From positions 1 through 34,585 of the forward strand of contig JAKANM010000004.1 in NCBI GenBank assembly GCA_021812425.1: a stretch of DNA of 34,585 nt. Direction: 5' to 3'. The stretch comes from a bacterium (lineage in GTDB: Bacteria; Patescibacteriota; Patescibacteriia; Magasanikbacterales; GWA2-37-8). The notes below the pieces were generated by a model, which saw only the letters and a program-made list of their open reading frames with translations, was not told where the DNA came from and searched no databases. Below, piece by piece: positions 8,689-16,769 of the stretch. Each line of letters opens with the position of its first letter. The first letter of the stretch is position 1. Made by a program: the position numbers and the translations under genes.

Positions 8689-8717
8689 TTGATTTTCGGG
8701 AAATTTTAGGGTATAAT
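8689..8717 (+). promoter_or_regulatory. promoter of the LexA-methyltransferase gene (TTGATT-N17-TATAAT)
   Basis: TTGATT 8689-8694, TATAAT 8712-8717, 17 bp spacer. Confidence 0.65.
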
Positions 8718-8754
8718 GAATATGCTAAATTACGAAAAAGCTGTCAAGCGTTTT

Positions 8755-10356
8755 ATGTCTACACTTACTAAAAAACAAAAGGAAATTCTAGACTTCATAA
8801 ATTCCTATTATAGCAAGCATGGTGTGGCGCCAACTTTTGAGGAAATAGGCGGGCGTTTTAAACGTGCTATCGCTACCATACACGAACATGTCGAAGAGCT
8901 GGTTAAAAAAGGCTTTATAAAAAAGAATAGTAATTCTGCGCGGGGCATTGAGTTAAATAAAGTTGTAGAAATGGTTAAAATACCTTTGCTCGGTACAGTC
9001 ACAGCTGGCTTGCCAATAGGGGTCATCCAAGAAAGAGAAGTTATTGCTATACCAAAGAATAAATTACCAAAAAATGGTAATATCTATGCTCTCCGCGTAA
9101 GTGGGGAAAGTATGGTTGAAGAGAATATTAATGATGGGGATTATGTGATTGTTAAGCAGCAACCCACAGCAGAAAATGGTCAAAAGGTAGTTGCATTGAT
9201 TGATAATGATGAGGTCACACTTAAAAAATTCTACAAAGAAAAAAATGGGGTTCGGTTACAACCTGCCAACCAATCCATGCTCCCACTTTTTTTTGAAAAT
9301 GCTAGGATAGACATACAAGGGGTTGTTCTTGATATTATAAAGTCAAATAATGAAACGGATAAAACAGGCTTTGAAGAAGAGGAACAAAAAGCAACACCTA
9401 TCAGACCGAAGGAAGCATTAAACTCACAGCCTAAAAAGATAAAAATAACATCTGCTTACCAAAAGAATGCTGACGCTGTGTTATTCCACGGTGATCGTTT
9501 GAAATTTCTTAGTACACTACCAGAAAAATCCGTTCGTCTGGTTGTTACTTCACCGCCCTATAATATTGGCAAGGAATATGAAAAGAGAAGAGATTTAAGT
9601 GTATACCTTAAAGATCAAGAAGATACAATTAGAGAGAGTGTGCGCGTTCTTGCCGACAACGGTAGCTTTTGTTGGCAGGTGGGCAACCATATAGGCGTAG
9701 ACGGTGAAGTTTTCCCGTTGGATATACTCATTTATCCAATTGCAAAAAAGTATGGACTTAAATTAAGGAATAGAATAATTTGGCATTTTGGGCACGGGCT
9801 CCATTGCACACATAGGTTTTCAGGGAGACACGAGACTATATTGTGGTTTACGAAATCAGATGATTATATATTTAATCTCGATCCGATCCGTGTCCCACAA
9901 AAATACCCCGGTAAAAAGAATTTTAAAAAGAATAGTAAATACGGAATGTTATCGGGTAATCCATTGGGCAAAAATCCTTCTGATATTTGGGAAATACCAA
10001 ATGTTAAAAGTAACCACCCAGAAAAAACCAATCATCCGTGCCAATTTCCAATTGAATTAATTGAGAGATTGGTTCTGTCGATGACAAATGAAAGAGATGT
10101 CGTTGTAGACCCTTATGCTGGCGTAGGCAGCGCTTTGTGTGCAGCTATTATCAATAATCGCAAGGGTTACGGATCAGACATTACCAAATCGTATCTCGAT
10201 ATAGCAAAAGAAAGAATCCAAGGAGTTGCTAATGGGACATTAAAAAGGCGTCCCATGGGGACACCTATTTTCCAACCGAAAAGTGGAATGAAGTTAGCAG
10301 AACTGCCACAAGAATTTCTAGAAGCCAGAAAAAAATTACTTGGGGCCAGGCTTTGA
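8755..10356 (+). CDS. LexA repressor domain fused to beta-class SPPY DNA methyltransferase (likely N4-cytosine)
   Basis: LexA wHTH (MSTLTKKQKEILDFI...GIEL), cleavage-site-like TVTAGLP, Ser in RVSGESM, Lys in DEVTLKKF; then MTase motif IV VVTSPPYNIGKEYE followed by motif I VVDPYAGVGSALCAA. ATG 8716 of the ORF track lies within the -10 box, so ATG 8755 is preferred. Confidence 0.9.
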   Translation: MSTLTKKQKEILDFINSYYSKHGVAPTFEEIGGRFKRAIATIHEHVEELVKKGFIKKNSNSARGIELNKVVEMVKIPLLGTVTAGLPIGVIQEREVIAIPKNKLPKNGNIYALRVSGESMVEENINDGDYVIVKQQPTAENGQKVVALIDNDEVTLKKFYKEKNGVRLQPANQSMLPLFFENARIDIQGVVLDIIKSNNETDKTGFEEEEQKATPIRPKEALNSQPKKIKITSAYQKNADAVLFHGDRLKFLSTLPEKSVRLVVTSPPYNIGKEYEKRRDLSVYLKDQEDTIRESVRVLADNGSFCWQVGNHIGVDGEVFPLDILIYPIAKKYGLKLRNRIIWHFGHGLHCTHRFSGRHETILWFTKSDDYIFNLDPIRVPQKYPGKKNFKKNSKYGMLSGNPLGKNPSDIWEIPNVKSNHPEKTNHPCQFPIELIERLVLSMTNERDVVVDPYAGVGSALCAAIINNRKGYGSDITKSYLDIAKERIQGVANGTLKRRPMGTPIFQPKSGMKLAELPQEFLEARKKLLGARL

Positions 10357-11007
10357 CCCATTGTATGTGCGCAGTTTAATTGTCTTTAGAGCTTCTCGTT
10401 TATCATTTTTAAAAAGTTCACGCAGGGCTTCGCATTTAATTTTTTCCTCTTCAGTTAAACCAATACCGATGACGAAAACAGGAATATCAATATTACTTTC
10501 GCCCCTATTCTCGAAATCAACCAATAGCTGTTGAAATGAGGACACACCCGTAGACATCTGTCGTACCAGTGCCTCACTTGGAACGACTTCAATCCCGCAT
10601 TCTATGTATTTTAAATTTTTAAAAATAATCATTTTTGAAAAAATATCATAACCCATGAAAGCATATTTGCCGAATTGAATTTCAAGACCGACTTTATTTT
10701 TAATCCCGTCCATTTCTCGAAATCGATTTTTGCCGAAAGCGTGTCGCGGTTCAATAAATTCCTTCTTTTTACCATCTGCCTTTTTAGTCCACCCCTTCTC
10801 GTAAAACATGAGCTTCAAATATTCATTCATGTCCCGTGGTGAAAAAAGAAGCTTTCCGCGCATTGTTTTTTCTTTGCTTTCCTTGGTTAGACACAAGGCG
10901 GCATCCAAAGATTTGATTGCCTCAAAAACTTCACGCAATTCTTTCGGATGATTTTCTTTGATAAATTTTTCACCACCTTTAAATGAGTATGTATCAAAAA
11001 TTTTCAT
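10336..11007 (-). CDS. type II restriction endonuclease, BglII-like
   Basis: MDGIKNKVGLEIQFGKYAFMGYDIF; D...E-x-Q with the same 9-residue D-to-E offset as BglII D84/E93/Q95 as I recall that sequence; next to a cognate-looking MTase. Confidence 0.75.
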   Translation of the reverse strand: MKIFDTYSFKGGEKFIKENHPKELREVFEAIKSLDAALCLTKESKEKTMRGKLLFSPRDMNEYLKLMFYEKGWTKKADGKKKEFIEPRHAFGKNRFREMDGIKNKVGLEIQFGKYAFMGYDIFSKMIIFKNLKYIECGIEVVPSEALVRQMSTGVSSFQQLLVDFENRGESNIDIPVFVIGIGLTEEEKIKCEALRELFKNDKREALKTIKLRTYNGSKPGPK

Positions 11008-11010
11008 AGG

Positions 11011-11229
11011 CTATACAAAATAACTAATTTTTTTCTTATATAAAATGGCAAATTCTTTTAACTCGACCACATCTATCCTTTGCTCGCCGATCTCTACCTT
11101 AGAAATATATGACTGTGGCCTTTTTAATTTTTGAGCTACCTGTTTTTGGGTTAAACCGGATTCTAAACGCGCAGCCTTTAATTTGGCCGTTATGTCCTTA
11201 TATATTTGTGAGTGTATCGTATTTGGCAT
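11011..11229 (-). CDS. XRE-family HTH regulator, putative R-M controller protein
   Basis: 72 aa: LKAARLESGLTQKQVAQKLKRPQSYISKVEIGEQRIDVVEL; 3 bp upstream of the endonuclease gene. Confidence 0.8.
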   Translation of the reverse strand: MPNTIHSQIYKDITAKLKAARLESGLTQKQVAQKLKRPQSYISKVEIGEQRIDVVELKEFAILYKKKISYFV

Positions 11230-11274: not shown

Positions 11275-11544
11275 AAAGTTTACAATGAAGTTCAAGTATG
11301 GACACCAAACTCACCACAATCAAGCAAGAGTGAGGGTGTCGTTTTCTTAGTATATATTAAAAAATCACCATACATAATTGAATGTTAGGACTAGTGGGAC
11401 AGTTGGCTTCGCCTCTCGTCGGCTTCCGCCTCCTCGGGCTAGCCACCGCCTCGCGGTCGCGCTCGCCAGCCTGCGTCGCGCGACATCGCTCCGGCGTTCA
11501 AGTCCCAACGCGAGCAAAGCAGTTTGCTCGCTCTACCCCTCCTC

Positions 11545-11582: not shown

Positions 11583-11583
11583 G

Positions 11584-11656
11584 TCGGGCTAGTGGGACTT
11601 GAACCCACGGCCTCGTGGTCCCGAACCACGCGCGCTACCAACTGCGCTATAGCCCG
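11584..11656 (-). tRNA. tRNA-Pro (anticodon CGG)
   Basis: Cloverleaf: CGGGCTA/TAGCCCG acceptor, CGTGG-TTCGGGA-CCACG anticodon arm, GTGGG-TTCAAGT-CCCAC T arm. Confidence 0.93.
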
Positions 11657-11694
11657 ATTGGTGTCCGCCTTCGTCAATTCTATGGCGGACGCTG

Positions 11695-11768
11695 TCGGGG
11701 TGACAGGACTTGAACCTGCGACCTCATGCACCCCATGCATGCGTTCTAGCCAACTGAACTACACCCCG
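11695..11768 (-). tRNA. tRNA-Pro (anticodon GGG)
   Basis: CGGGGTG/CACCCCG acceptor, CATGC-ATGGGGT-GCATG anticodon arm, GCAGG-TTCAAGT-CCTGT T arm. Confidence 0.92.
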
Positions 11769-12028
11769 TTATTATTAATTATTTTAAATAATTTATTCTT
11801 TATATCACGGCTCAACACACCGTGACTTTTTTTGTATTTATGTTCAAGTATGCGAGCCTCGCCAAGTGTTTCCGTTTCTCTATAGCCAATTAATTTAAGT
11901 GGACGTCGGCATTTTGTCGAAACAACCAAACCATCATGGTGTTGTTTTATGCGTTGTTCTAAATATGGTGTTGAACCAATATAATTATCTAAATCCTTTA
12001 AACTTTTGAGTAGATATACATATGCCAT
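11759..12028 (-). CDS. small GIY-YIG nuclease
   Basis: MAYVYLLKSLKDLDNYIGSTPYLEQRIKQHHDG...EARILEHKYKK; start moved from 12079 to 12028; its stop lies inside tRNA-Pro(GGG). Confidence 0.85.
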   Translation of the reverse strand: MAYVYLLKSLKDLDNYIGSTPYLEQRIKQHHDGLVVSTKCRRPLKLIGYRETETLGEARILEHKYKKSHGVLSRDIKNKLFKIINNNGV

Positions 12029-12039
12029 ACAAATGTTCT

Positions 12040-12112
12040 CCTGCACCCCGCCGGGCAGAGCCCTCTGGGCGTCGCCCATGCAGGCGCGATAGCCAACTTC
12101 GCTACAGCCCGC
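12040..12112 (-). pseudogene. tRNA-Pro-like 5' half with expanded anticodon loop (degenerate or interrupted tRNA)
   Basis: GCGGGCTG-TA-GCGA AGTTGGCTA TCGC matches a tRNA 5' acceptor strand and D arm; CCTGC/GCAGG stem follows with an insertion where the loop would be; no T arm or 3' acceptor strand. Confidence 0.5.
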
Positions 12113-15731: not shown

Positions 15732-16769
15732 ATGCAACCCATAAAATTCTATTTCAAAGAAGCGATAAAGAAAGACGCGTCGGATCTTCATTTGGTCGGA
15801 GGTCAAATTCCGGTATTGCGTGTTGATGGTCAGCTTCAGGATATAGAAAATGAGCCGCTAGAAAATAAAACTTTAGAGACGCAGCTCCTCTCGCTGATTA
15901 GCAAGGAACAAGCTGAGCAGTACCGCGAGAGTAAGGAGCTTGATTTTGGTCTTAATATCGAGGATGTTCGTTTTCGTGTGAACTTGCATCAGGGTCAGGA
16001 GTCTATCGGTATGGCCGCCCGTCTGATCCCGAAGGATATTCCGACTCCGGAAAGTCTCCGGTTTGAACAGCCTCTCACTGATTTTATCAATCTTTATGAC
16101 GGCCTCGTGCTTATCACCGGTCCGACCGGCTGTGGTAAATCGACCACGATCGCGACTATGATCGAGGAAATTAATAAAACTCGTCGTTCGCACGTTATTT
16201 CTATCGAAGATCCGATCGAATTTGTTTTCAAAAGTAAAAAATGTTTGGTTGAACAGCGAGAAGTAGGTACGGATACAAAGTCATTCGCCGTGGCTCTCAA
16301 ATATGTATTGCGTCAGGATCCGAACGTGATATTTGTTGGTGAAATGCGTGACCCCGAGACGATCGCGACGGTTTTGACCGCGGCTGAAACCGGCCATTTG
16401 GTATTCTCAACTTTGCATACCAGTACCGCGGCTGAGGCAGTGGAGAGAATTGTTGATGTGTTTGAGGGGTCAAAGCAACGCCAGGTCTTGATTCAGTTGG
16501 CGGCGGTGTTGCGCGGGGTTGTTGCTCAGCAATTGATTCCAGCCAAAGATGGTGGTAGAGTTCCGGCCAGAGAAGTTCTTATCAATACGCCGGCGGTATC
16601 AAACATGATTCGAGAGAATAGTATCGCTCAGATCAAATCCGCTATCCAGACTGGCATTAAGGATGGCATGATAACAATGGAAAATTCTATTAAGTCACTC
16701 ATTAAGGAAGGGCTCATCGACCAAACGTCGGCAGAGAATCGCAGTGGCAGTCGCCGCAAGGCTTCTTGA
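15732..16769 (+). CDS. pilT: twitching motility ATPase PilT
   Basis: DASDLHLVGGQIPVLRVDGQL, ITGPTGCGKSTTIA, EDPIEFV, VGEMRDPETI, LHTSTAAEAVERIVDVF. Confidence 0.92.
   Translation: MQPIKFYFKEAIKKDASDLHLVGGQIPVLRVDGQLQDIENEPLENKTLETQLLSLISKEQAEQYRESKELDFGLNIEDVRFRVNLHQGQESIGMAARLIPKDIPTPESLRFEQPLTDFINLYDGLVLITGPTGCGKSTTIATMIEEINKTRRSHVISIEDPIEFVFKSKKCLVEQREVGTDTKSFAVALKYVLRQDPNVIFVGEMRDPETIATVLTAAETGHLVFSTLHTSTAAEAVERIVDVFEGSKQRQVLIQLAAVLRGVVAQQLIPAKDGGRVPAREVLINTPAVSNMIRENSIAQIKSAIQTGIKDGMITMENSIKSLIKEGLIDQTSAENRSGSRRKAS

Follow-up and report, generated by a model that had tools for sequence, protein, structure and literature searches.

The window, the whole stretch of 34,585 nt that was analysed, carries on its minus strand, in this order, the 5' half of a tRNA-Pro gene with a hairpin insert, a small GIY-YIG open reading frame (ORF), an intact tRNA-Pro(GGG) and a tRNA-Pro(CGG) (Table 1). 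Base-by-base inspection of the minus strand confirmed several points of an initial annotation of this DNA: the broken half before the ORF, the insert with two small hairpins in its anticodon loop, after which the anticodon stem is resumed (12074-12038), the lack of a T arm and 3' acceptor strand, and the ORF stop within tRNA-Pro(GGG). The ends of the insert are ambiguous by ~3 nt because of G runs, and inserts of the same type and position were found in relatives.

Table 1. Features of the tRNA-Pro locus, with the syntenic anchor and the element-free loci of relatives.
Feature	Position or locus	Strand	Basis or remark
tRNA-Pro(GGG) remnant, nt 1-37 (5' acceptor strand, D arm, 5' side of anticodon arm)	12075..12111	-	Sequence CGGGCTGTAGCGAAGTTGGCTATCGCGCCTGCATGGG
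Hairpin insert, ~28 nt, two small GC hairpins, in the remnant's anticodon loop	12047..12074	-	Sequence CGACGCCCAGAGGGCTCTGCCCGGCGGG
Remnant resumed, anticodon stem 3' side	12038..12046	-	Sequence GTGCAGGAG
GIY-YIG nuclease ORF (predicted), 89 aa	11759..12028	-	PF01541, E 7.4e-11
ORF stop codon TAG = T8-A9-G10 of the intact tRNA-Pro(GGG)	11759..11761	-	ORF and ARAGORN coordinates
Intact (putatively restored) tRNA-Pro(GGG)	11694..11768	-	ARAGORN; Rfam 63.5 bits
tRNA-Pro(CGG), array anchor outside the element	11583..11656	-	ARAGORN; Rfam 71.6 bits
T2SSE/PilT-like ATPase gene, syntenic anchor	15732..16769	+	Adjoins tRNA-Pro(GGG) in element-free relatives
Element-free tRNA-Pro(GGG) loci	L071, L075, L077, L078, L084, L085, L018, L034		

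The broken half had been likened to the nearby tRNA-Pro(CGG), but it proved to be a GGG remnant. Without its insert, it is best matched by the tRNA-Pro(GGG) of another family member (G013, locus L075), with a score of 77 and three differences in 46 positions, two of which amount to one swapped anticodon-stem base pair. Against its own intact tRNA-Pro(GGG) neighbour the score is 47, with 29/37 positions of the first part identical. Since the intact copy is of a different sequence type, mere duplication of the broken copy does not account for it; on the simplest reading, the broken copy would be the earlier resident and the intact copy would have arrived with the element.

Within the remnant's anticodon stem, an AGGAG (12042-12038) lies 9 nt 5' of the ORF start codon ATG and could serve as its Shine-Dalgarno sequence. 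Translation could also begin in frame at 12079, within the remnant, and would then give a product of 106 aa. A terminator-like hairpin (12212-12184) closes the gene upstream, so the remnant would begin a new transcription unit; a scan for consensus promoters before the remnant gave no clear candidate. The folding of the leader was not unusually stable relative to shuffled sequences (z = -0.68), and in an Rfam search of the leader the cut-off was reached by the two intact tRNAs only. A tRNA covariance search of the same genome at E<=10 did not detect the broken half, and a relaxed tRNA search is therefore insufficient for such remnants.

The ORF product matched PF01541 with 42.6 bits (cut-off 22.6) and has the conserved catalytic residues Y5, Y16, G18, R26, H30 and E62, of which Y5, Y16, G18, R26 and E62 are invariant across 16 relatives. 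It can thus be assigned to the GIY-YIG nuclease superfamily, with nuclease activity predicted. Among solved structures, the family profile matched UPF0213 (1zg2) at 2.3e-17, SLX1 at 1e-8 and I-TevI at 0.024, placing the predicted nuclease in the Slx1-like/UPF0213 branch, nearer to UPF0213/SLX1 than to I-TevI/UvrC, although the window protein by itself reached only 0.037 against 1zg2. The protein consists of the catalytic domain, with no additional DNA-binding domain. Given this and its kinship to the structure-specific UPF0213/SLX1 nucleases, it is conceivable that it recognises folded tRNA genes.

Two other regions of the window were recorded. On the plus strand, a GC-rich stretch at 11390-11520 matches the tRNA-Pro T loop exactly over 12 nt (GTTCAAGTCCCA, 11496-11507) and may be an old ORF-less scar; a tRNA-Pro(CGG) remnant is not claimed there, the T-loop match being limited to these 12 nt. 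In a 546-aa ORF (8716-10356, +), an N6/N4 DNA methylase is fused to a LexA DNA-binding domain and an S24 peptidase domain; beside it are a BglII-type endonuclease (10336-11007, -) and a small HTH protein (11011-11229, -). The region 8716-11229 resembles a restriction-modification cluster that includes a LexA-methylase fusion.

Association of the GIY-YIG genes with tRNA genes

The window protein was searched against 86 genomes of the order Magasanikbacterales, nearly all of them environmental assemblies, and the flanks of 130 homologs were collected (L037-L066, L087-L186). An intact tRNA gene on the same strand adjoins 91 of the 130, so that the link between this family and tRNA genes, on which the initial annotation had staked its reading, was borne out. 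From tRNA density (35 tRNAs per 742 kb) less than 1% would be expected. None of ten housekeeping YhbQ-like relatives adjoins a tRNA, and only 8 of 102 other ORFs of the same tRNA-rich loci lie within 30 nt of one, versus 77 tRNA-GIY pairs at this spacing in the 130 GIY loci, 63 of them of type A and 14 of type B. In type A the tRNA follows the ORF, as in the window; in type B it precedes the ORF and the remnant lies downstream. Type A was found 70 times and type B 28 times, seven homologs showing both, which gives 98 tRNA-GIY pairs spanning 34 genera and 19 isotypes. The ORF stop falls on T8-A9-G10 of the tRNA in 14/70 type-A loci, like that of the window.

Reading of the other 39 loci indicated that about ten of them are tRNA cases too, truncated by contig ends or by masking. 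A search of named genomes with an alignment of a closer subfamily found the same pattern in other Patescibacteria (34/80 loci, tRNA-His included). In viral contigs the same alignment gave a single weak match, so a phage origin of the element is unsupported and was set aside.

Related GIY-YIG genes were also seen in other settings. The genome of the window has a second case, with tandem units of tRNA-Asp remnant, hairpin and GIY-YIG ORF at a contig end (G000:C9; L005, L294), and three GIY-YIG genes (L002, L003, L004) flanked by inverted palindromic repeats instead of tRNAs, of the TGTCATTCCCG type in two of the three. Other related ORFs (L198, L201, L235, L251, L256, L261 and others) have short terminal inverted repeats, CCCCCACACC / GGTGTGGGGG or ACCCTGTTAAAT / GGGTgA, and sit in genes for 16S rRNA, apparently 23S rRNA and RNase P RNA, or in intergenic DNA, also outside Patescibacteria. 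A separate clade in six genomes (L108, L114, L115, L121, L147, L173) lies behind hairpins directly before a gene that, judged by eye from its start, resembles infC, encoding translation factor IF3. A protein-gene version was noted at L057 and L088, where an intact gene end is followed by the GIY-YIG ORF and a duplicated gene end with a GC hairpin.

Remnants, hairpins and empty sites

Remnants were sought with intact tRNAs masked, and a remnant was accepted when the locus's own tRNA beat every tRNA of other isotypes. By this test, 61 of the 98 pairs have, on the far side of the ORF, a remnant best matched by their own tRNA, and the broken half of the window is therefore not a chance resemblance. 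A significant remnant was absent in the other 37 pairs, which counts against the reading favoured below. Type-A remnants begin at nt 1 in 37/47 cases and type-B remnants reach the last tRNA nucleotide in 13/14; breaks cluster at nt 34-37, and identity over the match is 100% in 34/61. The remnants thus keep the outer end of the tRNA and are broken at a loop or arm, usually with one or more GC-rich hairpins in the gap. In some, a whole arm is swapped for a hairpin; the L067 remnant is a full tRNA-Pro(CGG) in which the T arm alone is exchanged for TCCGCC-TAA-GGCGGA.

Hairpin folding energy beat shuffled sequences at 5% in only 36 of 57 remnants; in several of the failures the hairpin lies inside the aligned part. 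One family is a double hairpin found at tRNA-Arg, tRNA-Ser and tRNA-Pro, in which 98.8% of cells are paired and six pairs are changed on both sides, a level reached by 0/500 shuffles. This covariation shows selection on the folded strand, whether RNA or DNA. Covariation of the leader, which had been named as a test of the initial proposal, was thus seen in the hairpins of one family. The double-hairpin motif occurs in 6/86 genomes, at tRNA loci in five of them; the match in the sixth is probably due to chance. Copies without an ORF form 74-bp tandem units in L292 and were also found in L073, both loci being ORF-less remnant arrays. Complete element units also occur in tandem (L076, L294), with two perfect units in L076.

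Occupied and empty alleles were compared at two targets, of which tRNA-Trp gives the cleaner comparison. In G021 the insert follows nt 37 of tRNA-Trp and nt 1-37 are duplicated, while in two genomes of the same genus (G017 and G023) the tRNA-Trp gene that follows the same upstream gene is uninterrupted. The syntenic tRNA-Pro(GGG) beside the T2SSE/PilT-like gene has no GIY-YIG gene in eight family members (Table 1), and G011 (L081) has there its own, independent GIY-YIG gene, behind two remnants with the hairpin GTCGCC-TGA-GGCGAC. Scar-like pieces of tRNA 5' ends lie upstream at some ORF-free sites, such as L034 and L075, so tRNA-Pro(GGG) was apparently a target more than once.

On a tree of 132 nuclease proteins (88 columns, many forks open), target isotype requires 42 changes versus 72 in shuffles (minimum 65 of 300), whereas host genus requires 75 versus 74, a random distribution. 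Two separate clades target tRNA-Glu, one in the anticodon loop and the other in the D loop, and tRNA-Asp is likewise the target of two separate clades. Seven genomes from different Patescibacteria lineages share one hairpin at the same site of tRNA-Trp, and the 5' part of the tRNA differs from genome to genome; within a locus, remnant and intact copy agree fully in their 5' parts in three of these genomes and differ (0.71-0.86) in the other four, as they do in the window. When this hairpin was searched as a DNA pattern in 380 genomes across the phylum, only the known G021 copy was recovered, and single element families are therefore sparse. The isotype clustering on the tree and the empty sites within one genus support target-specific horizontal spread into empty alleles, as in homing endonuclease genes. 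GIY-YIG proteins have been listed among the genes transferred from Patescibacteria to other bacteria (PMC12455944).

Possible origin of the locus and alternative explanations

The locus is probably a target-specific, homing-like mobile element built around a minimal Slx1-like GIY-YIG nuclease, which splits a tRNA gene and leaves an intact tRNA on one side. The initial annotation had proposed invasion of a tRNA-Pro gene by a homing-type nuclease, with a structured leader derived from the tRNA left behind; this proposal is strongly supported, and the pattern proved to be general across the order. As we picture it, the nuclease would cut a tRNA gene at a position that depends on the nuclease clade (examples are the D loop, the T loop and the junction of nt 36 and 37), and the break would be repaired from an occupied copy, with the tRNA halves as homology. 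Repair would insert the hairpin or hairpins, the rest of the marked copy, the ORF and a tRNA 5' part. The recipient's own 5' part would be left behind as a non-functional remnant marked by the hairpin, and the recipient's 3' part would be joined again to a 5' part, imported or duplicated, so that the tRNA would survive. Type B would be the mirror version, in which the 3' part is restored. The ORF would ride on the tRNA gene, presumably using the tRNA promoter and, in the window, taking its AGGAG from the anticodon stem and its stop from T8-A9-G10. The role of the hairpin is probably to tag the remnant's cut site or to abolish it.

Three observations count against parts of this model. The protein lacks a DNA-binding domain outside the catalytic one from which its specificity could come. 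The presumed site is disrupted by the hairpin in the remnant, but the intact tRNA copy of the same locus still carries it and would have to escape cleavage. In several tRNA-Trp cases both 5' parts are of the host's own tRNA, which does not fit a simple donor-derived repair; identical 5' parts would need within-species donors, duplication or gene conversion.

Several other explanations were weighed. The nuclease could bind the remnant, as DNA or as a tRNA-like mRNA leader, without cutting it and so repress its own synthesis; the insertion would still be mobile, with the remnant as its functional part. I-TevI represses itself by binding its own operator, and an operator or leader would account for type-A remnants lying directly upstream of the ORF, kept from nt 1 to the break and often at 100% identity, and for hairpins that covary in one family. 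We nevertheless consider it unlikely, given that type-B remnants lie downstream of the ORF, that arrays of remnants exist without any ORF (L073, L292) and that the window leader folds no better than shuffles. A dedicated tRNA-mimic regulator, as suggested in the initial annotation, is conceivable but leaves the mirror-image loci unexplained. A passive origin, in which tandem tRNA duplicates decay, GIY-YIG genes land in the gaps and the hairpins are unrelated REP-like palindromes, would agree with the tandem repetition of units and with the similar GC palindromes beside GIY-YIG genes away from tRNAs. It appears very unlikely, since random decay would not produce remnants with precisely one end of the tRNA retained and with their breaks in loops, nuclease clades track tRNA isotype, the same hairpin occupies the same tRNA-Trp site across lineages, and the double-hairpin motif is found almost only at tRNA loci.

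The restoration of a tRNA end after integration is classic behaviour of integrase-type elements, and type B keeps the 3' end, which would fit a tyrosine recombinase element whose att site restores the tRNA and which carries the GIY-YIG gene as cargo. This can hardly be the case here: the GIY-YIG gene (~250 bp) is the sole ORF between remnant and intact tRNA, no recombinase is present in the unit, and ORF-less units go down to 74 bp. A transposon or insertion sequence with its own transposase was rejected because the GIY-YIG gene is the only ORF in that interval. Splicing of an intron or twintron from the RNA, joining the first tRNA half to the second copy, was also considered, as excision of the stretch between the two 5'-part copies would yield a complete tRNA. 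Splicing is not needed, however, since an intact tRNA is already encoded downstream, and the intron relic offered by the initial annotation is highly improbable: no Rfam intron family was matched at E<=1, the hairpins often stand in for whole arms, and the GIY-YIG insertions in rRNA genes of Patescibacteria (candidate phyla radiation, CPR) lie outside group I/II introns (Tsurumaki 2024, PMC11270868). Group I/II and archaeal-type tRNA introns were both discarded, the remnant having no 3' half.

A broader reading of the homing-like element, which we put forward tentatively, is that of a new class in which a structure-guided, Slx1-like nuclease and covarying hairpins, single or double, would read folded tRNA genes (as cloverleaf or cruciform, perhaps single-stranded), insert at loops, replace single arms and rebuild the tRNA alongside, the ORF-less arrays being non-autonomous.

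If the homing-like reading is true, a large share of the small GIY-YIG genes of Patescibacteria would be selfish elements and not repair genes, and nearly every kind of tRNA gene would be invaded without death of the host. It would account for the unusual incomplete tRNAs and the pseudo-tRNAs with hairpins that these genomes contain, make it easy to study how a nuclease of fewer than 90 residues finds its site and how an essential RNA gene survives invasion, and open a route to study DNA movement between uncultured episymbiotic bacteria.

Comparison with known systems

A limited literature search, by which novelty is not proven, found no account of such GIY-YIG elements in bacterial tRNA genes, and the tRNA-invading element is apparently an undescribed form of widespread selfish DNA. 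Short GC-rich hairpins or double hairpins inside genes and RNA genes are known from Rickettsia palindromic elements, REP/RAYT and the double-hairpin elements of Allomyces; unlike these, the hairpins described here are linked with a GIY-YIG gene, with tRNA arms and with a restored copy of the tRNA. Freestanding phage homing endonucleases such as SegB are longer proteins with DNA-binding regions, and we know of no hairpin-marked tRNA remnants associated with them. Phage T4 SegB is similar in that it is a GIY-YIG nuclease whose gene lies beside tRNA genes and promotes the spread of the region (PMC2988022, PMC13096335). The minimal prokaryotic Slx1-like/UPF0213 nucleases belong to the same sequence family and share the minimal domain; in the parts of their description considered here, they are treated as repair nucleases and no tRNA-gene element is described (Dunin-Horkawicz 2006, PMC1564403).

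The CPR rRNA-gene insertions are found in the same host group and also consist of small GIY-YIG ORFs, outside introns, in structured RNA genes (Tsurumaki 2024, PMC11270868). That survey makes no mention of tRNA and places GIY-YIG outside homing spread. In contrast to those insertions as described, the element reported here shows target-specific clustering and gene restoration.

A close parallel in architecture is with the mobile ORFs (mORFs) of fungal mitochondria, known in atp6, atp9, cox2 and nad3 of Glomus and atp6 of Allomyces (Beaudet 2013, PMC3630166), where an endonuclease ORF enters an essential gene and brings along a foreign gene end by which that gene is restored, and the displaced native end stays beside the ORF. 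The window's remnant and intact copy likewise appear to be of different lineages, and a displaced native part and a restored gene seem to share one locus, as in mORFs, in the window and in the 61 remnant-bearing pairs out of 98. The fungal mORFs reside in mitochondrial protein genes and encode full homing nucleases (LAGLIDADG, one GIY-YIG), whereas the element described here resides in bacterial tRNA genes, encodes a catalytic-domain-only Slx1-like protein and has hairpins in its remnant.
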